DNA of 64,000 nt from Verrucomicrobiales bacterium (lineage in GTDB: Bacteria; Verrucomicrobiota; Verrucomicrobiia; Verrucomicrobiales; V1-33), in assembly GCA_028293125.1 (NCBI GenBank), contig JAQGPJ010000021.1, forward strand, positions 1 to 64,000, in the 5' to 3' direction. How positions within the stretch are numbered: the stretch's first letter is position 1; the number at the start of each line of letters is the position of its first letter. A program made the translations under genes and the position numbers. The notes below the pieces were generated by a model. The model was given only the letters and a program-made list of their open reading frames with translations, was not told the DNA's origin and did no database searches. Shown here one piece after another: positions 19,206-30,443 of this stretch.

Positions 19206-20195
19206 TTATTTATCAGCTTCATCCTCCGGCCCGCTGTCCCCGCAAGGTGGAACTTCAGGAGGGATGGATGCCGCCGAAATAATGGCGGCGGACAGCCCCA
19301 GCCTCGCCCGCAGCAGATCATCGACGAGAACCGCCCGGCTGTTGGGAACCACACCGGAACCGAATTTCCGGGCATAAATCTTTGTGATTTCCGCGCCGAA
19401 AAAGAGGATGCACGCGGAGTAATAAATCCAGGCGAGGATGATCACCACGGAGCCGGCGGCTCCAAAACTGGAGGCCACGCTGCTGGTGGCGAGATAATAG
19501 CCGATGATCAGCTTCCCGAAGGTGAAAAGAAGGGAGGTGGCCACAGCCCCAAGCCAGACGTCGCGCCAGAGGAGCTTCACATTTGGAAGCAGCTTGAAAA
19601 TCATCGCAAAGAGACCGCTGACCACGGCAAACGAGATGATAAAATCCCAGATCCGCCACACGGCGGCAGGCAGTTGAAACTGCCCGCTCATGTAATTTCC
19701 CAGCGCGGCGAGAACAAAACTGATGACCAGCGAGACGAGCAGCAGAAAACCAATGGCCAGCACGATCGAAAACGAAAAGAAGCGGTCATGCATCAGCGTG
19801 AGCAAGGGACGGCCCGGCTTCACGGCAACGCCCCATATGGAGTTCAGGGCGTCCTTCAGCTCGGCAAACACGGTGGACGCGCCAAAAAGCAGCAGGCCAG
19901 TGCTGAGAACCGTTGCCAGCACCCCTCCTGCTTTCTGCTCGGCGCTTGACTGAACCGCCGCCTGAATAGCCTCGCCTGCCCCTGTTCCGACGAGCAGCGC
20001 TATTTGATGTGAAAGTTCCCCTCTGGCCGCCTCCTCCCCAAATACCACGCCGGCCATGGAGATTACGATCACGAGCAGCGGCGCGAGTGAGAAAACCGCG
20101 TAGTATGCCAGCGAGGAGCTGAGACGCATCGCCCCGTCGTCCACCCAGCCGAAAGCGGCTTCTTTCAGCAGCTCAGGCAGGCGGCGGGCATTCAT
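19206..20195 (-). CDS. YihY/virulence factor BrkB family inner-membrane protein
   Basis: 329 residues from ATG 20195 (MNARRLPELLKEAAFGWVDD), chosen because family members begin with this helix; ATG 20234 would add 13 residues. The hallmark LSSSLAYYAVFSLAPLLVIV is followed by a large loop and further membrane segments: VLSTGLLLFGASTVFAELKD, FSIVLAIGFLLLVSLVISFV, WDFIISFAVVSGLFAMIFKL and SVVIILAWIYYSACILFFGA, then AEITKIYARKFGS. Six transmembrane helices are expected. The family was once called RNase BN by mistake; its role (envelope integrity or transport) is still unclear. Confidence 0.92.
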   Translation of the reverse strand: MNARRLPELLKEAAFGWVDDGAMRLSSSLAYYAVFSLAPLLVIVISMAGVVFGEEAARGELSHQIALLVGTGAGEAIQAAVQSSAEQKAGGVLATVLSTGLLLFGASTVFAELKDALNSIWGVAVKPGRPLLTLMHDRFFSFSIVLAIGFLLLVSLVISFVLAALGNYMSGQFQLPAAVWRIWDFIISFAVVSGLFAMIFKLLPNVKLLWRDVWLGAVATSLLFTFGKLIIGYYLATSSVASSFGAAGSVVIILAWIYYSACILFFGAEITKIYARKFGSGVVPNSRAVLVDDLLRARLGLSAAIISAASIPPEVPPCGDSGPEDEADK

Positions 20196-20313
20196 GGAGC
20201 TGGGCGCGGCGTGGTTGGGCGCAGGTGGAATCAAAGGCCTTCAGCAGGACTGCAGCATCGCCGGCCCGTCCGATTCAACAAAGCGGACAGACCGGCAGTC
20301 CTGAACAGACAGC

Positions 20314-21132: not shown

Positions 21133-22455
21133 TCATGGCAGCTGAGGCACGGTCCGCAAAATGCGCCGCAGCTTTTGTCCGGGCTCCGGCGGGGACCAAG
21201 GGCCGAAACGCAGGGGGACAGGCCGGAAACGCTGATTTTTCCAAAACCGGTGCAGGGACTGCTCCACGGTCCGCGCGGCTTCTCCGGCCATCGGGAGAGG
21301 GGTTTTCAATGCCACGCGCAGCCCTCCATTTTCCGGATCCTGAACCACGGAGTATTCCTCAATGGCCGGATGCGCGGTGATGACCGCCAGGCGGATGAAG
21401 TCCGGGAAGATCTCCACCGTGCCGCCGCCAACGCGCTCAAAGACCAGCAGGTCGTCGCAGCGGCCCTCCACGGCCTCCAGCGCGGTGAAAAGGCTGCCGC
21501 AGGGACAGGGCGTGCGGCGCTCCCGCAGCACATCATTCAGGCGGTGACGGATGACCGGCTGCGTGCGGCGGCGGAAGTCGGTAATGATGGGCACAAACCG
21601 GCCCTCACCCAGCTCCTCCCGCTGAATGACCGCCACGTCCTCATTGAGATGCATGGTTCCATAGGCACAGGTGGCACCGAGAAATCCCTCCGTGGCTTGG
21701 TAAATCCCGTGCACCGCACGATGCCCGAAAGCGGCGGCGATGAAGGCGGCGTCCTGCGGCTCCAGCACCTCGGCGGCAGCGCAGATTTTGTCAGGGCGGA
21801 CGGAGATCCGGCCTGCGGCCCGCGCCTCGGCCAGCCGCCGGAGCGCACTGGGCGGGGCCACCAGCAGGGTGGGTGCAAAGGCTTCGAGCTGCTCCAGCAG
21901 CTCCTCCCAGGGACGGAGCAGGTCAAAGTAGCGGAAGGAGAGCCGCCGGCTTTGGATACTGCGGTAGAGATTGCTGTTGGACCGCAGGAAAAGCGCCGCG
22001 CGCTGGCCATGGGCGGCCAGCCCCCGGGGCAGCACGCGGGCGAGAAGGGTGCCCGCCCATTCCGCCCGCTCGGCGGCGCTGGCGGCAAAGAGGCCCCGGC
22101 TGCCGCTGGTGCCGGAGGACAGGCCGACGGTGAGGCCTTTGACCATGGGCAGGAAATCCCGCGTCTCCTCCGCGCGCTGGGCCACCCGCAACGCCTCCCC
22201 GAGGTCCAGGCCGGCGGTGTTCAGCCGGCTGAAATTCCCCATCATCTCAGTTTTCCCAATGATGGGAAAATCCCGCCAATTCCGCAGGTCCAACCCAGCA
22301 TAAAGTTCCTGGTAATACGGAGAATGCCGCCTCACCCACGCCAGGTGCCGCCTCACGGCTGTGTCCTGCCAGCGCTCCAGAGCCTCACGCGTTTTCCAGC
22401 GGCCGGCATTCCGCCGCGCCCGGGCATAGGACCAAAGCAGACGGAGGGAATTCAT
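21133..22455 (-). CDS. Adenylate-forming enzyme, PaaK/coenzyme F390 synthetase-like
   Basis: 440 residues. An ANL-superfamily enzyme of the phenylacetate-CoA-ligase/F390-synthetase type, expected to activate a carboxylate as acyl-AMP. The phosphate-binding loop is LTVGLSSGTSGSRGLF, the aromatic motif is YQATEGFLGATC (usual form: Y-G-x-T-E), and the C-terminal part has IITDFRRRTQPVIRHRLNDV, CPCGSLF and EGRCDDLLVFER, the [KR]-x-D-D hinge region. The N-terminus starts MNSLRLLWSYARARRNAGRW. Its ATG overlaps the stop of the upstream hydrolase gene (ATGA). It ends a five-gene minus-strand cluster with a ketoacyl synthase and a reductase, so a fatty or beta-hydroxy acid is a likely substrate (inference). 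Confidence 0.82.
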   Translation of the reverse strand: MNSLRLLWSYARARRNAGRWKTREALERWQDTAVRRHLAWVRRHSPYYQELYAGLDLRNWRDFPIIGKTEMMGNFSRLNTAGLDLGEALRVAQRAEETRDFLPMVKGLTVGLSSGTSGSRGLFAASAAERAEWAGTLLARVLPRGLAAHGQRAALFLRSNSNLYRSIQSRRLSFRYFDLLRPWEELLEQLEAFAPTLLVAPPSALRRLAEARAAGRISVRPDKICAAAEVLEPQDAAFIAAAFGHRAVHGIYQATEGFLGATCAYGTMHLNEDVAVIQREELGEGRFVPIITDFRRRTQPVIRHRLNDVLRERRTPCPCGSLFTALEAVEGRCDDLLVFERVGGGTVEIFPDFIRLAVITAHPAIEEYSVVQDPENGGLRVALKTPLPMAGEAARTVEQSLHRFWKNQRFRPVPLRFGPWSPPEPGQKLRRILRTVPQLP

Positions 22456-23303
22456 GACCGCCAGACCTCCGGGCAGTGGGTGGGGATGATCGTCACTTCC
22501 GGATGGGCCAGGTGCAGCCGGTGCAGCTTTTCCAAGGTTGCGTTCAGAGCCCGCCAGTCTCCGAGAAACCGCACCAGGCGCGAGGGCGGCCGCCGGGAGC
22601 GGATGGCTTCACTAGACCATGCACCGTCCGCCGCCAGCAGGGTTGGCCCTCTTTCCTGATCTCGGAGAAAAAGCCCCATCTGCCCCACCGCATGGCCCGG
22701 CAGGTCCACTGCCAGCAGGCTGCCATCGCCCAGCACGTCGCGGGCTTCGGCAAACGGGGAAAACCGGTCAGGCAGGCGGACACAGGGGGCATCCTCCAGA
22801 AAGCGCACGCGCTGCATAAAGTCCTCCGGGATCAGTCCCGGCAAAAACGCGCGGCGCAGTGCGCCGAATCCCTCCCGTCCCGCCACGTCCTGCCAAGCAG
22901 CATGGGAGCAGTGGAAAAGCGCCTCTGGGAAGTCCCGCAGCCCCCCGATGTGGTCGGCATGGAAATGCGAGATGAAGACATGCCGGACCACGCTGGCGGA
23001 AATGCCCATGGCAGCCAGCTGCCGCATGACGGAGCCGCGGGAGTGAAGCCGCACCGGCGTGAACCAGCGGTGGAGCCGCGCGGGCCAGCGCCGGGTTTCC
23101 TGAAAAAAGCGCCCGGAGTAGCCGGTGTCGAACAGAATGGGGCCGGCGGGGTGCTCCAGCAGCGCGGACAGGGCCTCGAACCGCATCACCCGCCAAGGGG
23201 CGCCGCGCAGGGACAGACCCTCCAGCTGGCGGCAGAAGCCGTCGGTCATCAGGGTCAGCTTCACCGGGGGCATGGCATCACACAGCAGGCATTCAGGCCT
23301 CAT
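22452..23303 (-). CDS. Metallo-beta-lactamase-fold hydrolase
   Basis: 283 residues from ATG 23303, chosen because it overlaps the upstream stop as ATGA. The metal-binding motif is HVFISHFHADHIGG (H-x-H-x-D-H), with later ligands in VDLPGHAVGQMGLFL, LAADGAW and IIPTHCPEVW. This is the arrangement of the lactonase/glyoxalase-II-like branch, which hydrolyses lactones or thioesters. No signal peptide. In the classic olefin cluster (oleABCD) the hydrolase position is filled by an alpha/beta-hydrolase; here an unrelated hydrolase fold occupies the cluster. Substrate unknown; a beta-lactone or acyl-thioester from the neighbouring enzymes is possible. Confidence 0.85.
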   Translation of the reverse strand: MRPECLLCDAMPPVKLTLMTDGFCRQLEGLSLRGAPWRVMRFEALSALLEHPAGPILFDTGYSGRFFQETRRWPARLHRWFTPVRLHSRGSVMRQLAAMGISASVVRHVFISHFHADHIGGLRDFPEALFHCSHAAWQDVAGREGFGALRRAFLPGLIPEDFMQRVRFLEDAPCVRLPDRFSPFAEARDVLGDGSLLAVDLPGHAVGQMGLFLRDQERGPTLLAADGAWSSEAIRSRRPPSRLVRFLGDWRALNATLEKLHRLHLAHPEVTIIPTHCPEVWRS

Positions 23304-24286
23304 TGCTGCCCCCTCCACCATTCAGCGAACCCCTGAAGGCCCTCAGCAACGGAAACCCGTGGTTTGTAATCAAGGACGGTCCGCGCGGCGGTGAGGTCGA
23401 AGGTTTGGGAAAAGGCCAGCACGCCGGCGCTGTAACGGGTGAGCGGCGGCTCCCAGCGCGCACCGGTGAAAAGCCGGGAACCGGCCTCCAGCGCCATGGC
23501 CGCCCACCGGGCTTTGCGCAGGGGAATGCGCCGTGGTTTCCACGGCAGGCCCGCGGCGCGAAACAGGTGGCTCAGGAGTTTTTCCCGCGGCCACGGCTCG
23601 CCATTGGTGATGTTGAAAGCGCGGCCCGCCGCCGGAGGTGACACGGCGGCGGCAATCAGGGCATCGACCACATTCCCCACCCAGGTCACCTCCACCAACG
23701 GATCACCGGGACCGATCAGCGGAAACCCTCCCCGCCCCGCCGCTCGCAGGAGGCGCGGGAAAAGGGAGGTGTCGCCCGGCCCGAAAACCGCCCGCGGACG
23801 CAGGATCACGGTTTCACAGCCGGCGGCGTTCACGATGCCCTCCGCCATCCCCTTGGTGCGGGCGTAGTCATTAATTGGATGCCGGGCGGGGGCCGAGGCT
23901 TCCGTGAGGTCAAACCGGTCCCGCTCCTCGAAATAAATACTGGGCGTGGAGACGTGGACCAGCCGCCGCACGACGTGTTTTCCACAGGCCGCCGCCACAT
24001 TCGCGGTGGCCTGGACATTGTCCCGCAGAAAATCCGCCCGCCGTCCCCAGGGCGAGGACCGGGCTGCGCAGTGAAAGACATACTCCTGCCCGGCGCAGGC
24101 CGCGCCCACCGCCTCCGCACCGGCGAGGTCCAGCCGCAGAAAGCAGATGCCCTGCCCGTCCAAACGCTCCCCGGCGGCAGTGTTTCTCCCCGCTCCGGTC
24201 ACGTCCCAGCCCATGTCCCGCAGGCGGCGGGCCAGTGCTCCGCCAAGAAATCCGGTGGCTCCGGTGACCAGCGCGCGCGGTTTCAT
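23300..24286 (-). CDS. NAD(P)-dependent epimerase/dehydratase, OleD-like 3-beta-HSD family
   Basis: 328 residues. An extended short-chain reductase with the nucleotide site ALVTGATGFLGGALARRL, the conserved YVFHCAARSSPWGR and LVHVSTPSIYFEERDRFDL, and the catalytic Y-x-x-x-K in NDYARTKGMAEGIVNAAG. The FHCAA/HVSTPS/Y-x-x-T-K pattern is the one seen in OleD and 3-beta-hydroxysteroid dehydrogenase relatives, which reduce 2-alkyl-3-keto acids to beta-hydroxy acids. It overlaps its neighbours on both sides by 4 nt (ATGA), so translation is probably coupled to the ketoacyl synthase, its likely supplier of keto substrate. Confidence 0.85.
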   Translation of the reverse strand: MKPRALVTGATGFLGGALARRLRDMGWDVTGAGRNTAAGERLDGQGICFLRLDLAGAEAVGAACAGQEYVFHCAARSSPWGRRADFLRDNVQATANVAAACGKHVVRRLVHVSTPSIYFEERDRFDLTEASAPARHPINDYARTKGMAEGIVNAAGCETVILRPRAVFGPGDTSLFPRLLRAAGRGGFPLIGPGDPLVEVTWVGNVVDALIAAAVSPPAAGRAFNITNGEPWPREKLLSHLFRAAGLPWKPRRIPLRKARWAAMALEAGSRLFTGARWEPPLTRYSAGVLAFSQTFDLTAARTVLDYKPRVSVAEGLQGFAEWWRGQQ

Positions 24287-25287
24287 AATTCCAGAATAAC
24301 ACCTCCAATGGAAAGCCCGGCGGATGTGCCCATGAGTGCGATCCTGTCCCCGCGCCCGATCCGCCCCTGCGCCCAGGCGTCGTGCAGCCCGATGGGAATC
24401 GTGGCCGCGATGGTGTTGGCCCCGTCCTGGGCGTGCACAAAAAACCGCTCCTCCGGAATGCCCAGGCGTTTCCGCAGCAGGCGCATGGCCATGAGGCTGC
24501 CCTGATGGGGAATCACCAGTTTCAGGTCCTCCCAGCCGCGCAGGCCCGCGGCCCCCAGCAGCCGCGCGGTGAAGGCCGGCAGCCGTCCGCTGGCGAAGCG
24601 GAACACCGCTTTGCCCTCCATGCGGAAGAGGTAATCCCCGGTGTTGGATCCATCATGGCGCGATCCCGGAATCCCCGTGCCGCCGCCCCGGATCTCCGTC
24701 AGGGACGCCGCCTCAGCCCAGGTTTCCAAGCCGGACGCCAGCACCGCCGAGGACTCCCCGGCGGGGGTGGGCCGGATGACCGCGGCCGCCGCGCCGTCCC
24801 CGAGGATGGTGCAGCTTTCCGGATGCGACCAGTCAATGCCCGGCGATGCCAGCTCACTGCTGATGAGCAGCAGATTCCGGTAGCGCCCCGAAGCCACCAC
24901 GGGTGCCAGATGGTCCAGCGCCACCACAAAGCTGAGGCAGGTGGCGTTGATATCGAAAGAGGGCACCCCGGCGAAGGCAGGTCCCAGTTCCCGTTGCATC
25001 AGAGCCGCCGTGCAGGGCACGGGCTGCTGCATGGTGCCGCTGGCGCACACGATGCCGTCCACATCCCCGGGGGAAAGGCCGGCCTGCGCCAAGGCCCGCT
25101 CCGCCGCCCGCGCGCCCATCCAGGAGGCGGTCTCGTGGACGGCGGCAAAGTAACGGCTGTGGACGCCGGAGTGCTTTATGGTCCAGCCCGGCTCCAGTCC
25201 GGCCAGCGCATCGGTCTCCTCCGCGCTGACCCGCCGCTCCGGAAGGAATTTTCCGAGTCCGGCAATCTGGCAGCGTTGAGGATTCAT
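24283..25287 (-). CDS. Beta-ketoacyl synthase III-type condensing enzyme (FabH/OleA-like)
   Basis: 334 residues, complete thiolase-fold enzyme. The catalytic triad is visible: Cys117 in FDINATCLSFVVALD, His261 in KLVIPHQGSLMAMRL and Asn291 in DGANTIAATIPIG. Also typical are GIVCASGTMQQPVPCTA and CTILGDGAAAAVI. Such enzymes join an acyl-thioester to malonyl-ACP or a second acyl chain. The next gene, an OleD-like reductase, starts inside its stop codon, which favours a dedicated pathway over a duplicate fatty-acid FabH. Its own start MNPQRCQIAGLGKFLPERRV lies 93 bases after the PAP2 gene. Confidence 0.88.
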   Translation of the reverse strand: MNPQRCQIAGLGKFLPERRVSAEETDALAGLEPGWTIKHSGVHSRYFAAVHETASWMGARAAERALAQAGLSPGDVDGIVCASGTMQQPVPCTAALMQRELGPAFAGVPSFDINATCLSFVVALDHLAPVVASGRYRNLLLISSELASPGIDWSHPESCTILGDGAAAAVIRPTPAGESSAVLASGLETWAEAASLTEIRGGGTGIPGSRHDGSNTGDYLFRMEGKAVFRFASGRLPAFTARLLGAAGLRGWEDLKLVIPHQGSLMAMRLLRKRLGIPEERFFVHAQDGANTIAATIPIGLHDAWAQGRIGRGDRIALMGTSAGLSIGGVILEL

Positions 25288-25380
25288 GGGCAGCGGCAGG
25301 GCGGACGGGCAGATTTTGGAAAGAGTGATGGAAACGGATGGAAAGCAGAACGGTGTCCGGACACCCTGACAGGGTCCGCG

Positions 25381-26238
25381 TCAGTTTGCCAGCGCGCCGG
25401 AGGCCGGACGCCGGACCAGCCACAACACACCCGCCAGCAGCACCAGGCCTCCCAGCACATCCACAAAATAATGCTGCCCCAGCCACACTGTGGATAGCCA
25501 GATCCCGGCCACCACCGGAGCATGCCGGAGGAAAAGCCGCCGGTCCGCCCGCGCATCAAAAACCAGGATCAGCCCCGAAACCGCGCAGTGCAGGCTGGGA
25601 AAACAGTCCACCCGGTTGCTGCCCCAAACGACCATGGCCTCCGCGAGCCGCGTTCCCAGCCATCCCGCCGGTGGAGGGGTGAATCCGGAACCCGCGTCCA
25701 GATACGGACCAGCCGCCGGGCACAGAATATACCCCGCAAACCCCAGCGCATACACCAGCCCCAGGGCGCGGAAGAATGGTCCCGCCCGCTGCCCCGGCAC
25801 CCAGCCATGCCGCCACAGACCAAGCATCAGATAGGGAAAAAGTCCCATATAGCACCAGGACATCAGCTCGGTGAGCACTGGATGCCCCAAGCGCTCCATC
25901 CACACCCCGCCGAAACCGCCTGTCAGCAGCCGGTCCGCCTCCTGAAGCAGCCGCGCGCCATCGGGCCGGAATGCCGGGACCCCGGCCCCGAGCGCGTGAT
26001 AGCACGCCGCCATGGCCGCCATGAAATAAAACCACCGCACCCGACAGGCCACCAGTCCCGGCAGGCTTTGCACCCAGGCGATGGTCAGCAGCGTCGCCAC
26101 CGCCACCCCGGCCGTTTCCACAAAAGCGGCGGTCCACGCAAGGCCATGAACCGCCAGCAGCGCGGCATACACGGCAAAAAGCGTCAGATAAGTCCATTCG
26201 TGGAGTTGGATACCGGCGGGACAGAGGGTCATTCTCAT
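25381..26238 (-). CDS. PAP2_3 membrane phosphatase/phosphotransferase (inositolphosphoceramide-synthase-like)
   Basis: 285 residues from ATG 26238 (ATG 26232 also possible); the upstream frame is open but reads as leader. Six or more hydrophobic segments, with the PAP2_3 signature: YILCPAAGPYLDAG before a loop, FPSLHCAVSGLILVFD (the usual S-G-H replaced by S-L-H), and WLGQHYFVDVLGGLVLLAG (H-x-x-x-D). This branch includes inositolphosphoceramide synthases, which move a polar phosphate head group onto a lipid. It precedes the ketoacyl-synthase cluster on the same strand by 93 bases, suggesting that it acts on the lipid product; this is inference. Confidence 0.78.
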   Translation of the reverse strand: MRMTLCPAGIQLHEWTYLTLFAVYAALLAVHGLAWTAAFVETAGVAVATLLTIAWVQSLPGLVACRVRWFYFMAAMAACYHALGAGVPAFRPDGARLLQEADRLLTGGFGGVWMERLGHPVLTELMSWCYMGLFPYLMLGLWRHGWVPGQRAGPFFRALGLVYALGFAGYILCPAAGPYLDAGSGFTPPPAGWLGTRLAEAMVVWGSNRVDCFPSLHCAVSGLILVFDARADRRLFLRHAPVVAGIWLSTVWLGQHYFVDVLGGLVLLAGVLWLVRRPASGALAN

Positions 26239-26421: not shown

Positions 26422-28026
26422 TCACTCCGTCTCCACCAGAATGACCGCCAGATGGTCATTGCGGATTTTGGTGGTCAGAGCGGGCTTAGGGACTGATGCC
26501 GCGGCGATGGCGATCTCCAGCAGGCGTTCGCCGGTCAGCAGGTCGGTGGCCCGCAGTTTCCCGGCGGTGGCGGGGAATTTCAGCTTCTCCAGCGGCACCC
26601 GGATTTCAAAACCGGACTCCCCCGCCGGCCCTTCATAGTTGGGCACCACCAGCACTGCTTTTTGGCCCGCATAACGCGCATAGGCTTGGAGCGGATTGGG
26701 AACTCCGTTCCGTGTGGAGTCCACGGCGGTGAGATTGGCCTGCCGGGTCTCGTCCGGGAAACGCTCAAAAATGTCCGGATGGCTGCGACGGATGCGGAGG
26801 TATTTTTTGACGTCCTCAAAAAACTCCCGGTTTCCCGGCTGCTCCTTTGCCGCCCAATCGATGAAGTTGAAGAACATGACGCCGCCCTCCGCCTCCGGGA
26901 TCAAGGTTTTGGGATTGTTCCACTCCTCGCCAATCCACCACAGGGGGATCAGAGGAGCGAACACAGCCGTGTAGCCGAACCGCACCCGGCTGCCCAGCAC
27001 AAAGGGTTCGCCGTCATCGTGGTTCAGCAAATTCTGGGTGTAGAAGCGGAAGGCCCCGCCCCTGCCCTGCTGCTGGACTGTGGCCTGCCCGATGCCGGCA
27101 CCGGTGCGGATCATCTCCACCAAATTGGACCTCAGCAGGGCGTCACTGTGCTTGCCGAACCGCTCATGCTGCTGCTTCAGGCGGTCAGGATGGGCGTAGT
27201 CGGGCTCCTCGGTCCACCCTGTCACTCCGTTCTGCTCAAAGTCAAAGGTGTCCTCCCGCCCGGCGGGCATTTCAGCCATCAGAATGATTTTGCGGCCTTT
27301 GGCATACACCGCCTCCCGGACCTCTTTAAAAAAGTAGCCTGAGGTGTCCGGTGCCAGATCGACCCGGCAGCCGTCGGCCCCGGTCTCCATGATAAAATTC
27401 ACGGCGGCATCCCGGTACCAGCTCCGGAATCCGGCGTGGCTCCAGTCAAAGCCGTAGCCGCCCCAGACCTCCCAAAATTTCCCGTCCGGCAGCCGCTTAT
27501 AGAACTCCGGATGGGTGGTGACCAATGGCGCGTCCTTCCGCGTGCCCCAGACCACGATATCAAAAATCACCCGGATATTCCGCCGGTGCGCCTCCTCCAC
27601 GAACCGCCTCACCACTTTGCAGGACTCGTGAAAATCCGCCCCGGCGGTCAGCCGCGGCTCCAAGGTGGCCGGGCCGAAGTTTCCATAGCCATTTTTCCGG
27701 GAGCCTCGCTCCTGGACCGGACAGATCCACAGGCCGTTCACGCCCATCTCCGCGTAATGATCGAGGACTTTGACTGCGGAGGCGAAGGTGCCCTCCGGCG
27801 TGGCGGTCTCGATTCTCAGTTCCGCCATGATCAGGGTTTTAACCCAGTCCGGTGACATCCCCTCCATCCCGACCTCGCTGTCCGGCAGCACCTTCGGAAT
27901 CAACGCCGCATTGCTGATGGGCTCCTGGCCGGATCCGGACGGTCCAGCGATGGCGGGACAGCCAGCCAGCCACAGCACGGCGGCCACAACGGTGGGAAGG
28001 AGAGCGGTCAGAAAGGAAAATCGCAT
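26422..28026 (-). CDS. Secreted GH13-like alpha-amylase family enzyme (lipoprotein)
   Basis: 534 residues. The leader MRFSFLTALLPTVVAAVLWL then AGC carries a lipobox-like L-A-G-C, so it is likely exported and lipid-anchored. The (beta/alpha)8 features are ASAVKVLDHYAEMGVNGLWI, RRNIRVIFDIVVWGT, GADGCRVDLAPDTSG with the presumed nucleophile Asp near residue 223, and KIILMAEMPAGRED with the presumed acid/base Glu near 250. A C-terminal beta domain follows (VLVVPNYEGP, FEIRVPLEKL). Substrate is probably an alpha-glucan or oligosaccharide; subfamily unassigned. The gene lies just upstream of the lipid cluster on the same strand, but 180 bases and a change of theme separate them. Confidence 0.85.
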   Translation of the reverse strand: MRFSFLTALLPTVVAAVLWLAGCPAIAGPSGSGQEPISNAALIPKVLPDSEVGMEGMSPDWVKTLIMAELRIETATPEGTFASAVKVLDHYAEMGVNGLWICPVQERGSRKNGYGNFGPATLEPRLTAGADFHESCKVVRRFVEEAHRRNIRVIFDIVVWGTRKDAPLVTTHPEFYKRLPDGKFWEVWGGYGFDWSHAGFRSWYRDAAVNFIMETGADGCRVDLAPDTSGYFFKEVREAVYAKGRKIILMAEMPAGREDTFDFEQNGVTGWTEEPDYAHPDRLKQQHERFGKHSDALLRSNLVEMIRTGAGIGQATVQQQGRGGAFRFYTQNLLNHDDGEPFVLGSRVRFGYTAVFAPLIPLWWIGEEWNNPKTLIPEAEGGVMFFNFIDWAAKEQPGNREFFEDVKKYLRIRRSHPDIFERFPDETRQANLTAVDSTRNGVPNPLQAYARYAGQKAVLVVPNYEGPAGESGFEIRVPLEKLKFPATAGKLRATDLLTGERLLEIAIAAASVPKPALTTKIRNDHLAVILVETE

Positions 28027-28200: not shown

Positions 28201-29004
28201 TCAGAGGCGGATGGCGGAACGGCGGCGGGAGGAAAGCGCCAGTCCCAGGAAGCTGGCTATGGTCAGGACTCCGGCGGGCTCGGGAGCGGACACCACGAAG
28301 AATTTGCGGATGAAGGACTGCTTTTTTGGAATCACATTCCTGCGGGCACCCAGGTTGTCCATGGTCAGAGCCTGCGGCTTTTCCTTACCATCAGCGGCGG
28401 AGGTTCCGCCAGTGCGGTCTGCAAATTTCCAGATGCTCTTGTCGCTGTCGTAAAGGCTGGCCCAGCGCCAATCCACCGGATCCTCCAGAGCGCTGCCCTC
28501 AGAAACTCCCTGCCCGGTGCCGGGCTGAAGCTGGAGGGTGCCAAGGAAGCTGGCGGAGAAAGTGTTGGCCATTAAAGATTTCAATCCTTCGGCAGGAGCA
28601 GTGTCCCCGGAAGTTTTGGAATCCAGCTTTGCCGCCGGACCGGACGATTTGCCGGAGGCCCCAATAAAACCGCCGAGGAAGCCGGTCGAGGCTCCGTTCG
28701 TGACCACCGCTTTTCCCGCCGTCATGGAGTTATTCCGGGCGGTGTAAACCGAACTGTGGTCCGGCAGGGCGCCGGCAGGGGGGTAGGTTTCAAAAGCCCC
28801 AGAGGAGCCATTGATAGTTTCGGAAACATTCCTGGCACCTGCTCCCCGACTGTAATGGGTCTCATACAGGGTGTCAAAAACGGTTCCCACGCTAAAGATG
28901 GTGCCGGTTCCGTCAAGTTGTGTAACAGTCCGGGTTACCGCTGCCTGGGCTACTGCGGGAGACGCGGTCAGCAGAAGTGCGGCGAGGCGCCTTGAGGTTT
29001 TCAT
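28201..29004 (-). CDS. PEP-CTERM secreted protein A
   Basis: 267 residues from ATG 29004, chosen for the signal peptide MKTSRRLAALLLTASPAVAQ and because it lies 46 bases from a sigma-54-like promoter. The mature part is low in cysteine and rich in Gly/Ser/Thr (SVYTARNNSMTAGKAVVTNG, FLGGFIGASGKSSGPA). It ends with the exosortase signal APEPAGVLTIASFLGLALSS then RRRSAIRL, almost the same as the tail of the neighbouring 29399 protein. Presumably exported, processed at the PEP motif and linked to the outer surface or exopolysaccharide. No enzyme motif. The exosortase gene is not in this window. Confidence 0.85.
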   Translation of the reverse strand: MKTSRRLAALLLTASPAVAQAAVTRTVTQLDGTGTIFSVGTVFDTLYETHYSRGAGARNVSETINGSSGAFETYPPAGALPDHSSVYTARNNSMTAGKAVVTNGASTGFLGGFIGASGKSSGPAAKLDSKTSGDTAPAEGLKSLMANTFSASFLGTLQLQPGTGQGVSEGSALEDPVDWRWASLYDSDKSIWKFADRTGGTSAADGKEKPQALTMDNLGARRNVIPKKQSFIRKFFVVSAPEPAGVLTIASFLGLALSSRRRSAIRL

Positions 29005-29049
29005 GGAGGAGGGGGAGGTGAAATTCTGAGGCGTGGACAACCCTCATTA

Positions 29050-29315: not shown

Positions 29316-29401
29316 CCTCCAGCCGGTGGTTTTCAACCGGGCTGGAGGCTTGGGCATTCCAATTGGAAATTTCAATGGACTGAAGAACCGCATCCCGCTC
29401 A
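29316..29401 (-). repeat. 3'-end hairpin repeat, copy 1
   Basis: Just after the stop of the 29399 gene (minus strand), a stretch of about 85 bases carries the string ATTGAAATTTCC and a hairpin CCTCCAGCC...GGTT/AACC...GGCTGGAGG at 29316-29348. A diverged copy lies at 30803-30892. It is not followed by a clean T-run, so it may be a 3'-end stabiliser rather than a simple terminator. Confidence 0.6.
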
Positions 29402-30397
29402 CAGGCGGACGGCGGAGCGGCGGCGCGAAAAGAGGGCCAGTCCGAGGAAGCCACCCATGGTCAGGACTCCGGCAGGTTCGGGAGCGGACACGAGGGTGAT
29501 TTTGCCAGTGAAGGGATTATCCATCATGGTCGCGTTCTTGTCGGTGATGTTCCAGTTTTTGGCGATCAGAGTTCCGTTGATATTGGCGCTCTGATTCACA
29601 TCGGCGGCCGGAGCGAGGATGGTGCCTTTGAACATCTGGTTGACGTTAAGGGTCTGCGCGGAAGTGTCCCCCTCCACGCCGCTCGCCTGGTCCACAAAGT
29701 TCCAGAGGATTTTACCGTCGGTGGCGTTGGTGGACAGGCCCCAATCCACACTGTGACCCAGCACATTGACCACAATGGTCTCCTCACCGGTGCCGCCACC
29801 GAAGCTGATGTTGTTGAGGCCGCCGATTTTGGAGCCGTCGATGGTGTAAACCTTCAGGCCGTCCCCGTTGGCTGTATTCTGGGAAAGGTCGACCTTGACG
29901 CTCACGTCCTTCGGGTCCAGCGAGATGGTCACGCTGTCCATTTTGGCCAGATCGGAGGAAAGCTTGACCAGATTTTCGACTGTCGGAGCGAGATCAAAGG
30001 ACTTGTTGTAAATGTCCCCCTTTTTGGCAACCAGATTGTCTTTGGTATAGTCGCCACCGATGTAAATGTCACCACTGTTGGCACGCACGGCGGCGTCCGC
30101 CCCTTTGTTTCCGGCCACGGTGTTATCGCCGCCGATGTAGAGGGAGGTGTTGTCCGGCAGAGGACTGCCCGGCTGGGTGGTGCCGTTCACCAGACGGACA
30201 TCATAATTCACGCCGGAGAAGTTTCCTCCCACCACCACCGATCCCTGGGCCTGCCCGCCTTCGGGGGCATAGGCATTGCCACTGACGAAAACATTGGTGT
30301 CTCCGGCTATCCCAAGGGAGAGGGAGGTCACGGCAGCCGGAGCGGCGGCGAAGGGACAGATGAGAAGAAGAGCAGTGAGGAATTTGGATTTGTTCAC
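29399..30397 (-). CDS. PEP-CTERM protein B with choice-of-anchor A domain
   Basis: 332 residues from a GTG at 30397. I prefer this start to ATG 30430 because it opens the signal peptide (V/M)NKSKFLTALLLICPFAAAP and keeps the same 47-base distance to the sigma-54-like element as the paralogue; the ATG would leave almost no leader. The body is a choice-of-anchor A domain: AYAPEGGQAQGSVVVGGNFS near the start and KILWNFVDQASG, FKGTILAPAADVNQ and INGTLIAKNWN near the end, a beta-helix-like adhesive fold. The tail APEPAGVLTMGGFLGLALFS then RRRSAVRL is a PEP-CTERM signal. Expected at the cell surface; an adhesion or matrix role is inferred from the domain. Confidence 0.87.
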   Translation of the reverse strand: MNKSKFLTALLLICPFAAAPAAVTSLSLGIAGDTNVFVSGNAYAPEGGQAQGSVVVGGNFSGVNYDVRLVNGTTQPGSPLPDNTSLYIGGDNTVAGNKGADAAVRANSGDIYIGGDYTKDNLVAKKGDIYNKSFDLAPTVENLVKLSSDLAKMDSVTISLDPKDVSVKVDLSQNTANGDGLKVYTIDGSKIGGLNNISFGGGTGEETIVVNVLGHSVDWGLSTNATDGKILWNFVDQASGVEGDTSAQTLNVNQMFKGTILAPAADVNQSANINGTLIAKNWNITDKNATMMDNPFTGKITLVSAPEPAGVLTMGGFLGLALFSRRRSAVRL

Positions 30398-30443
30398 AGT
30401 AGCAGACTTTTCGATGTTAATTTTCAGCAACGGATGATTTTAA

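Follow-up and report, generated by a model that had tools for sequence, protein, structure and literature searches.

What is made by a compact run of genes that recurs in bacteria as distant as Verrucomicrobiota and Escherichia coli? The run studied here occupies positions 21133-26238 of the window, that is, the whole 64,000-nt stretch of DNA that was analysed, from contig JAQGPJ010000021.1 of a Verrucomicrobiales bacterium (GCA_028293125.1; home genome of 6.48 Mb in 120 contigs). It encodes a ketoacyl-acyl carrier protein (ACP) synthase III-type condensing enzyme (KASIII), a short-chain dehydrogenase/reductase (SDR), a metallo-beta-lactamase (MBL)-fold hydrolase and an adenylating ligase, preceded by a PAP2_3 gene. 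A preliminary description read the locus as an Ole-like pathway with two swapped enzymes, the hydrolase and the ligase. We found the gene order KASIII-SDR-MBL-ligase again in at least ten phyla, and sequence comparison places the condensing enzyme neither with OleA nor with FabH but in a third clade that contains MxnB and CorB. With a probability of about 0.5, the four genes form a conserved pathway that makes and activates a beta-hydroxyacyl lipid unit and is paired with lineage-specific head-group enzymes. What stands of the Ole-like description is that the cluster is conserved and of lipid type and that its reductase is related to OleD; its condensing enzyme is not OleA, and its ligase belongs to the superfamily of OleC. 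The genes are as follows.

21133-22455, minus strand: PaaK/F390-like adenylating enzyme (the ligase), open reading frame (ORF) with a TIGR02304 match
22452-23321, minus strand: MBL-fold hydrolase, ORF with a Lactamase_B match
23300-24286, minus strand: SDR (NAD-dependent epimerase/dehydratase fold), ORF with an Epimerase match
24283-25287, minus strand: KASIII condensing enzyme, ORF with an ACP_syn_III_C match
25381-26238, minus strand: PAP2_3 membrane protein, ATG start (the open frame extends to 26358), ORF with a PAP2_3 match

Gene order and distribution of the core

All five ORFs were confirmed at their described positions and on the minus strand. Neighbouring core ORFs share 4, 22 and 4 bp, as a single transcript with coupled translation would lead one to expect, and the core is indeed preceded by the PAP2_3 gene, which lies 93 bp upstream on the same strand. 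The Pfam scores in bits, with cut-offs in brackets, are 69 (27) for PAP2_3, 53 (22.7) for Lactamase_B, 124.5 (20.9) for Epimerase and 85 (26.6) for ACP_syn_III_C.

Scanning 84,980 species genomes with a ligase alignment yielded 392 relatives, the best 80 of which were kept as named loci. All four core genes are present in 72 of the 80, and 71 of the 80 keep them on a single strand in one of two fixed orders, KASIII-SDR-MBL-ligase (48 loci) or SDR-MBL-ligase-KASIII (23 loci), so chance is excluded. One locus (L103) has the four genes rearranged, while the remaining 8 lack KASIII or are cut by contig ends. The hosts among these best 80 of 392 belong to Bacillota, Pseudomonadota, Verrucomicrobiota, Myxococcota, Fusobacteriota and Actinomycetota, and further to Cyanobacteriota, Chloroflexota, Bdellovibrionota, Campylobacterota, Bacteroidota and Melainabacteria. 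The preliminary description had proposed looking for the same gene order in genome databases, and the order proved to be kept far outside close relatives.

Within the home phylum the distribution is patchy, with matches above the TIGR02304 cut-off in 8 of 57 relatives and in 2 of 388 phylum-wide genomes (the own genome counted in each). This patchiness over many phyla suggests horizontal transfer. We considered and dropped the idea that the window cluster came recently from Bacillota; no donor is claimed because the trees place the window differently: the KASIII tree with Bacillota (99/94), the ligase tree next to Verrucomicrobiota (95/75, not well supported), whereas the SDR tree does not resolve it. 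Base composition gave no information on this point. The congener G004 carries the core (L037) with an ATP-grasp gene and a FemX-fold partner, and its KASIII branches elsewhere in the tree, so different versions of the cluster occur within a single genus, in two of its species. A search for phage carriage of the ligase gave no match.

In E. coli, a seven-gene version is matched in 672 of 5,426 complete genomes (about one in eight), nearly all of them chromosomal. Both records inspected (L125:5001-11882 and L122:5200-12081) contain the complete version between narI and purU, comprising KASIII, SDR, MBL, F390-like, PAP2, OlsE-like sterol desaturase family and fatty acid desaturase genes; the L125 copy adjoins tRNA-Tyr. 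On the Pseudomonas megaplasmid pBASL58, KASIII, SDR, MBL and F390-like genes are scattered among hypothetical genes and form no operon, and in the pMPPla107 stretch, another Pseudomonas megaplasmid, only the ligase was seen.

The condensing enzyme and the other core proteins

The condensing enzyme had been described as having an intact catalytic triad, and Cys117, His261 and Asn291 are each invariant in all 65 cluster KASIII proteins aligned (window plus 64 relatives). At the position of the catalytic glutamate of OleA and PpyS, the window enzyme has Val90; the cluster enzymes have isoleucine, leucine or valine here in 65/65 cases, and glutamate is found in 13/13 OleA rows. This glutamate (E117 in OleA, E105 in PpyS) serves as base, and the PpyS E105A variant is dead (PMC4578411). 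Kresovic et al. described a valine (V94) at the same position in MxnB and CorB, and attributed it to the greater acidity of the alpha-carbon in the beta-keto substrates of these enzymes (PMC4578411). Both enzymes have been shown by experiment to join two carrier-bound chains (PMC5724707, PMC4901931). Because the OleA glutamate is absent, a plain acyl plus acyl condensation is unlikely and an already activated nucleophile is favoured, which would be a beta-keto thioester (MxnB-like) or malonyl-ACP (FabH-like).

A KASIII tree was the check proposed for grouping with OleA or FabH, and the window enzyme falls outside both. The tree of 100 rows separates OleA (100/100) and FabH (100/99) from each other and from a third group made up of the cluster enzymes with MxnB and CorB (100/99), in which MxnB and CorB are nested. 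Together with the Glu-to-Val signature, this placement assigns the enzyme to the MxnB/CorB type. An OleA identity is rejected by the OleA clade that excludes it, the missing glutamate and a score of 81 bits against a cut-off of 285 with the OleA model PRK09258, and the OleA-like role given to the enzyme before is not supported; the profile search found no OleA above the model cut-off in the home genome. Housekeeping FabH is rejected as well: besides its separate clade, the window enzyme reaches 208 bits against a cut-off of 292 with the FabH model TIGR00747, and a separate FabH is encoded on contig C13 of the home genome (421.8 bits). The best NCBIfam match is PRK07204 "beta-ketoacyl-ACP synthase III", a model without a specific assigned function, at 375 bits and thus just under the curated cut-off of 402.

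The structural comparison agrees in rank. The AlphaFold model (pLDDT 95.7) is nearest to MxnB, with a Z score of 46.0, an rmsd of 1.8 over 328 residues and 36% identity, against a Z score of 40.5 and 21% identity for OleA, and Foldseek ranks CorB and MxnB at the top. The scores of FabH and BioZ structures differ from that of MxnB by no more than about 2 Z units, and the function is therefore not settled by the structure alone.

The reductase had been called OleD-like, which holds as a relationship and fails as orthology. Among all NCBIfam models its best match is the OleD-type NF042422, at 226 bits against a cut-off of 580, and the cluster SDRs form the sister group of OleD (OleD 100/98, cluster group 98/82), a group that also includes two other SDRs of the phylum. 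The likely OleD genes of OleA-bearing relatives score 358-398 bits and are also under this cut-off, and for this reason the tree outweighs it; an OleD ortholog was rejected on both. The GxxGxxG motif and Y141/K145 are intact, and the SDR is probably a 3-keto reductase. In nine OleA-bearing genomes of the Verrucomicrobiota phylum (including G136, G133 and G065), the best OleD match is not within about 7 kb of OleA; as it lies elsewhere in the genome, the ole genes do not form one operon there.

The assignment of the hydrolase to the metallo-beta-lactamase fold, a family unrelated to that of OleB, was borne out by its Lactamase_B match and metal site. The ligands HxHxDH, H210, D232 and H282 are intact in the window protein; across the cluster, H119, H121, D123, H124, H210 and D232 are invariant in 68/68 proteins and H282 is kept in 64/68. 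N-acyl-homoserine lactone (AHL) lactonases are nearest, yet far below their cut-offs (79 bits against 390 for the AttM model), so that the enzyme is no assigned AHL lactonase; judged from its sequence, this AHL-lactonase-like hydrolase is probably a thioesterase or lactonase of the pathway.

The ligase was correctly taken for a PaaK/CoF-synthetase-like adenylating enzyme. It is a member of TIGR02304 "F390 synthetase-related protein" (431.8 bits against 251.9, residues 3-436), an NCBIfam equivalog without an assigned function, for which we found no established function. Among solved structures, PaaK-type CoA ligases come nearest to it, the best being 4r1l (PaaK). The motifs of the ANL adenylating superfamily are intact, namely the P-loop SSGTSG (113-118), Y252/T255/E256 (YxxTE), D308, G331-R332 and the A10 lysine K428, thus covering P-loop, A5, A7, A8 and A10. 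OleC is an ANL enzyme too, and the earlier statement that the two ligase families are unrelated was mistaken. Coenzyme F390 synthetase itself is only a distant relative of TIGR02304. The window enzyme probably performs an acyl-activating or acyl-transferring step. An F390-synthetase-like gene appears in PMC2649909, there only among ladderane candidate clusters, and PMC10849952 has no bearing on the cluster.

Partner modules and the local PAP2_3 gene

By clustering all ORFs of the fetched loci and counting co-occurrence in 86 loci, we found three partner sets that never occur together: an ATP-grasp set (33 loci), glycosyltransferases (19) and PAP2 with an OlsE-like protein (18). The ATP-grasp set is usually accompanied by a protein of about 380 amino acids (27 loci); the family of this protein, encoded after the ligase or the ATP-grasp gene, is seen at 29 loci, among them L044:11313-12473. 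Two members of this family were scanned and had no Pfam or NCBIfam match; its structural model (pLDDT 93) has a tandem-GNAT fold, with Z scores of 17.1 to FemX, 17.1 to aminoacyl-tRNA-dependent peptide synthases and 15.4 to MprF, and on a Paenibacillus plasmid the deposited annotation of the gene at this position is "GNAT family". The glycosyltransferase set consists of an MGT type (18 loci) and a GT21, ceramide-glucosyltransferase-type enzyme (7 loci), giving 19 loci in all. In the third set, PAP2 (18 loci) is joined by an OlsE-like hydroxylase of the sterol-desaturase family (18) and a fatty acid desaturase (17), and in the beta- and gamma-proteobacterial versions PAP2 directly follows the ligase. 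The ATP-grasp and glycosyltransferase sets each occur in several phyla.

The partner enzymes, being of FemX/MprF fold, GT21, MGT and OlsE-like types, suggest lipid head groups, and the mutual exclusion of the tailoring sets suggests one lipid core whose head groups are interchangeable between lineages. The modules thereby give clear, testable head-group predictions. The alphaproteobacterial versions on the Ketogulonicigenium and Rhizobium plasmids (L194, L196) have a TetR-type regulator beside the core, accompanied by either a sulfotransferase gene or GNAT, Rieske and ATP-grasp genes.

In the window itself, PAP2_3 is the only nearby lipid gene and candidate head-group gene. It is PAP2_3/inositol phosphorylceramide (IPC) synthase-like by its Pfam score and by the motifs PSLH and H-x3-D (HYFVD), and reaches 32 against 480 bits with the phosphoinositol dihydroceramide synthase model. 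By analogy with the PAP2 of the proteobacterial sets, it may be the local head-group phosphotransferase or phosphatase.

Two further genes flank the locus, and neither was seen beside the other cluster copies in the loci compared.

26422-28026: amylase-like gene, upstream of the PAP2_3 side
19206-20234: BrkB-family gene, downstream of the ligase side

Farther out, two different minus-strand proteins of the window (28201-29040 and 29399-30430) have near-identical C-termini, SAPEPAGVLT..FLGLAL.SRRRSA.RL, a PEP-CTERM-like sorting signal.

The proposed pathway, its alternatives and known systems

The scheme that we propose builds on what was observed, namely which genes are present, their intact active sites and conserved order, the clades in which they fall and the mutually exclusive modules. 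KASIII would join an acyl thioester and an activated carbon nucleophile (a beta-ketoacyl thioester or malonyl-ACP) to give a beta-keto thioester, which the MBL hydrolase would free as an acid; the OleD-sister SDR would then reduce the ketone to a beta-hydroxyl, and the TIGR02304 enzyme would adenylate the acid and hand the acyl group to a carrier or head group. Finally, a lineage-specific module would build the head group, here probably PAP2_3, by phospho head-group transfer or dephosphorylation. The product would be a two-chain or one-chain beta-hydroxy lipid; we infer each of these reactions, as we do the order of hydrolysis and reduction, the chain lengths and the membership of PAP2_3. Among the products suggested before, a head-group-modified lipid fits best; nothing points specifically to a beta-lactone or an olefin as the end point.

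Several observations weigh against this beta-hydroxyacyl pathway. The conserved C-H-N catalysis fits plain FabH-type chemistry equally well as chain joining, and activation by an ANL enzyme after a hydrolase is apparently a wasteful order. The window PAP2_3 has no phmmer match to the PAP2 proteins of the proteobacterial clusters (24% identity in a forced alignment) and lies on the opposite side of the core from them; since homology is not found, its role is drawn from position and family, and it could be a bystander. The local set could also be incomplete, since a search of the home genome turned up no ATP-grasp and no FemX-fold partner; the positive controls of this search were G004, G022 and G038, and the congener G004 has both partners. 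The exclusivity of the modules partly follows taxonomy, with dense sampling of Streptococcus and Burkholderia/Burkholderiales, and so overstates the number of independent events; it may not hold in every lineage, given that, on a Rhizobium plasmid outside the 86 loci, a single core has GNAT, Rieske, ATP-grasp and glycosyltransferase genes in its vicinity.

Other explanations of the core differ mainly in what the condensing enzyme does and where the product goes. KASIII could be a FabH-like primer enzyme for a one-chain beta-hydroxy fatty acid with an unusual chain, which would be linked to a head group in the manner of ornithine lipids; this amounts to the one-chain form of the proposed pathway and seems to us possible but doubtful. 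Such an enzyme would be consistent with the retained C-H-N triad and FabH fold (208 bits; structural scores of FabH proteins a few Z units from that of MxnB), and the proteobacterial module does include an OlsE-like hydroxylase; against this, the window KASIII clearly does not belong to FabH and stands closest to chain-joining enzymes, and a dedicated KASIII and SDR would be redundant because the normal fatty acid synthase already makes 3-hydroxyacyl-ACP. The product could also be no membrane lipid but a small diffusible acyl molecule, such as a pyrone, a lactone or an acylated signal. We consider this rather unlikely: although the nearest characterised ketosynthases make alpha-pyrone antibiotics, the hydrolase is lactonase-like and TetR-type regulators adjoin two of the plasmid cores, the partners comprise, among others, lipid enzymes that are integral to the membrane and glycosyl- and aminoacyl-transferases of lipid type, the partly annotated tally of neighbours shows no conspicuous dedicated exporter or receptor, and pyrones need neither a reductase nor re-activation.

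An Ole-type pathway to a hydrocarbon, ketone or beta-lactone type product appears improbable. The SDR is closest to OleD models and sister to OleD, the ligase shares the superfamily of OleC and the MBL resembles lactonases; the catalytic glutamate, whose loss kills PpyS, is nevertheless missing in every cluster KASIII, these enzymes stand outside the OleA clade, OleB and OleC are not among the four core genes (the genome beyond the window was not searched for them), and the head-group genes would be left unexplained. A bolder form of the proposed lipid pathway, which we offer tentatively, is a new membrane-lipid class in ten or more phyla, with two chains joined C-C by an MxnB-type KASIII into a beta-hydroxy (mycolate- or ceramide-like) core that bears interchangeable aminoacyl, glycosyl or phospho head groups, including a lipid of roughly an eighth of sequenced E. 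coli. If the cluster does make a membrane lipid, a whole class of lipids has escaped notice in organisms that are well studied.

We found no published description of the cluster in a search that mostly did not reach subscription journals and preprints, so that an earlier description is possible. The individual families are known, and we regard the cluster as a variant of KASIII-based lipid or polyketide assembly, with a plausible path to something larger; the name of its ligase family is to this day "F390 synthetase-related", despite a core conserved across many phyla and matched in roughly one in eight complete E. coli genomes. Compared with the enzymes of ornithine-lipid, MprF and ceramide-type systems (OlsE, MprF/FemX, GT21, IPC synthase), the partner genes have the same folds or families, but all stay below the NCBIfam cut-offs of characterised enzymes, and the acyl core would be made by another route, with no OlsBA or serine palmitoyltransferase seen in the core. 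OleABCD, which yields olefins or beta-lactones, resembles the cluster in overall logic, combining a condensing enzyme, an OleD-related SDR, an ANL enzyme and a hydrolase; it differs in that the window KASIII lacks Glu117 and forms part of a separate clade, the SDRs form a sister clade of OleD, the ligase is of another ANL family, the hydrolase is of another fold and the core has no OleB-type decarboxylase. MxnB and CorB, the alpha-pyrone ketosynthases of myxopyronin and corallopyronin, share with the window enzyme the clade, the valine at the glutamate position, a conserved glutamine and the best structural match. They act at the end of large polyketide synthase (PKS) lines and yield a pyrone, whereas the operon of the window KASIII contains no PKS and links the enzyme with an SDR, a hydrolase of the MBL fold and an ANL ligase. 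Their position inside a large family of apparently lipid-making ketosynthases suggests where these antibiotic enzymes may have come from.

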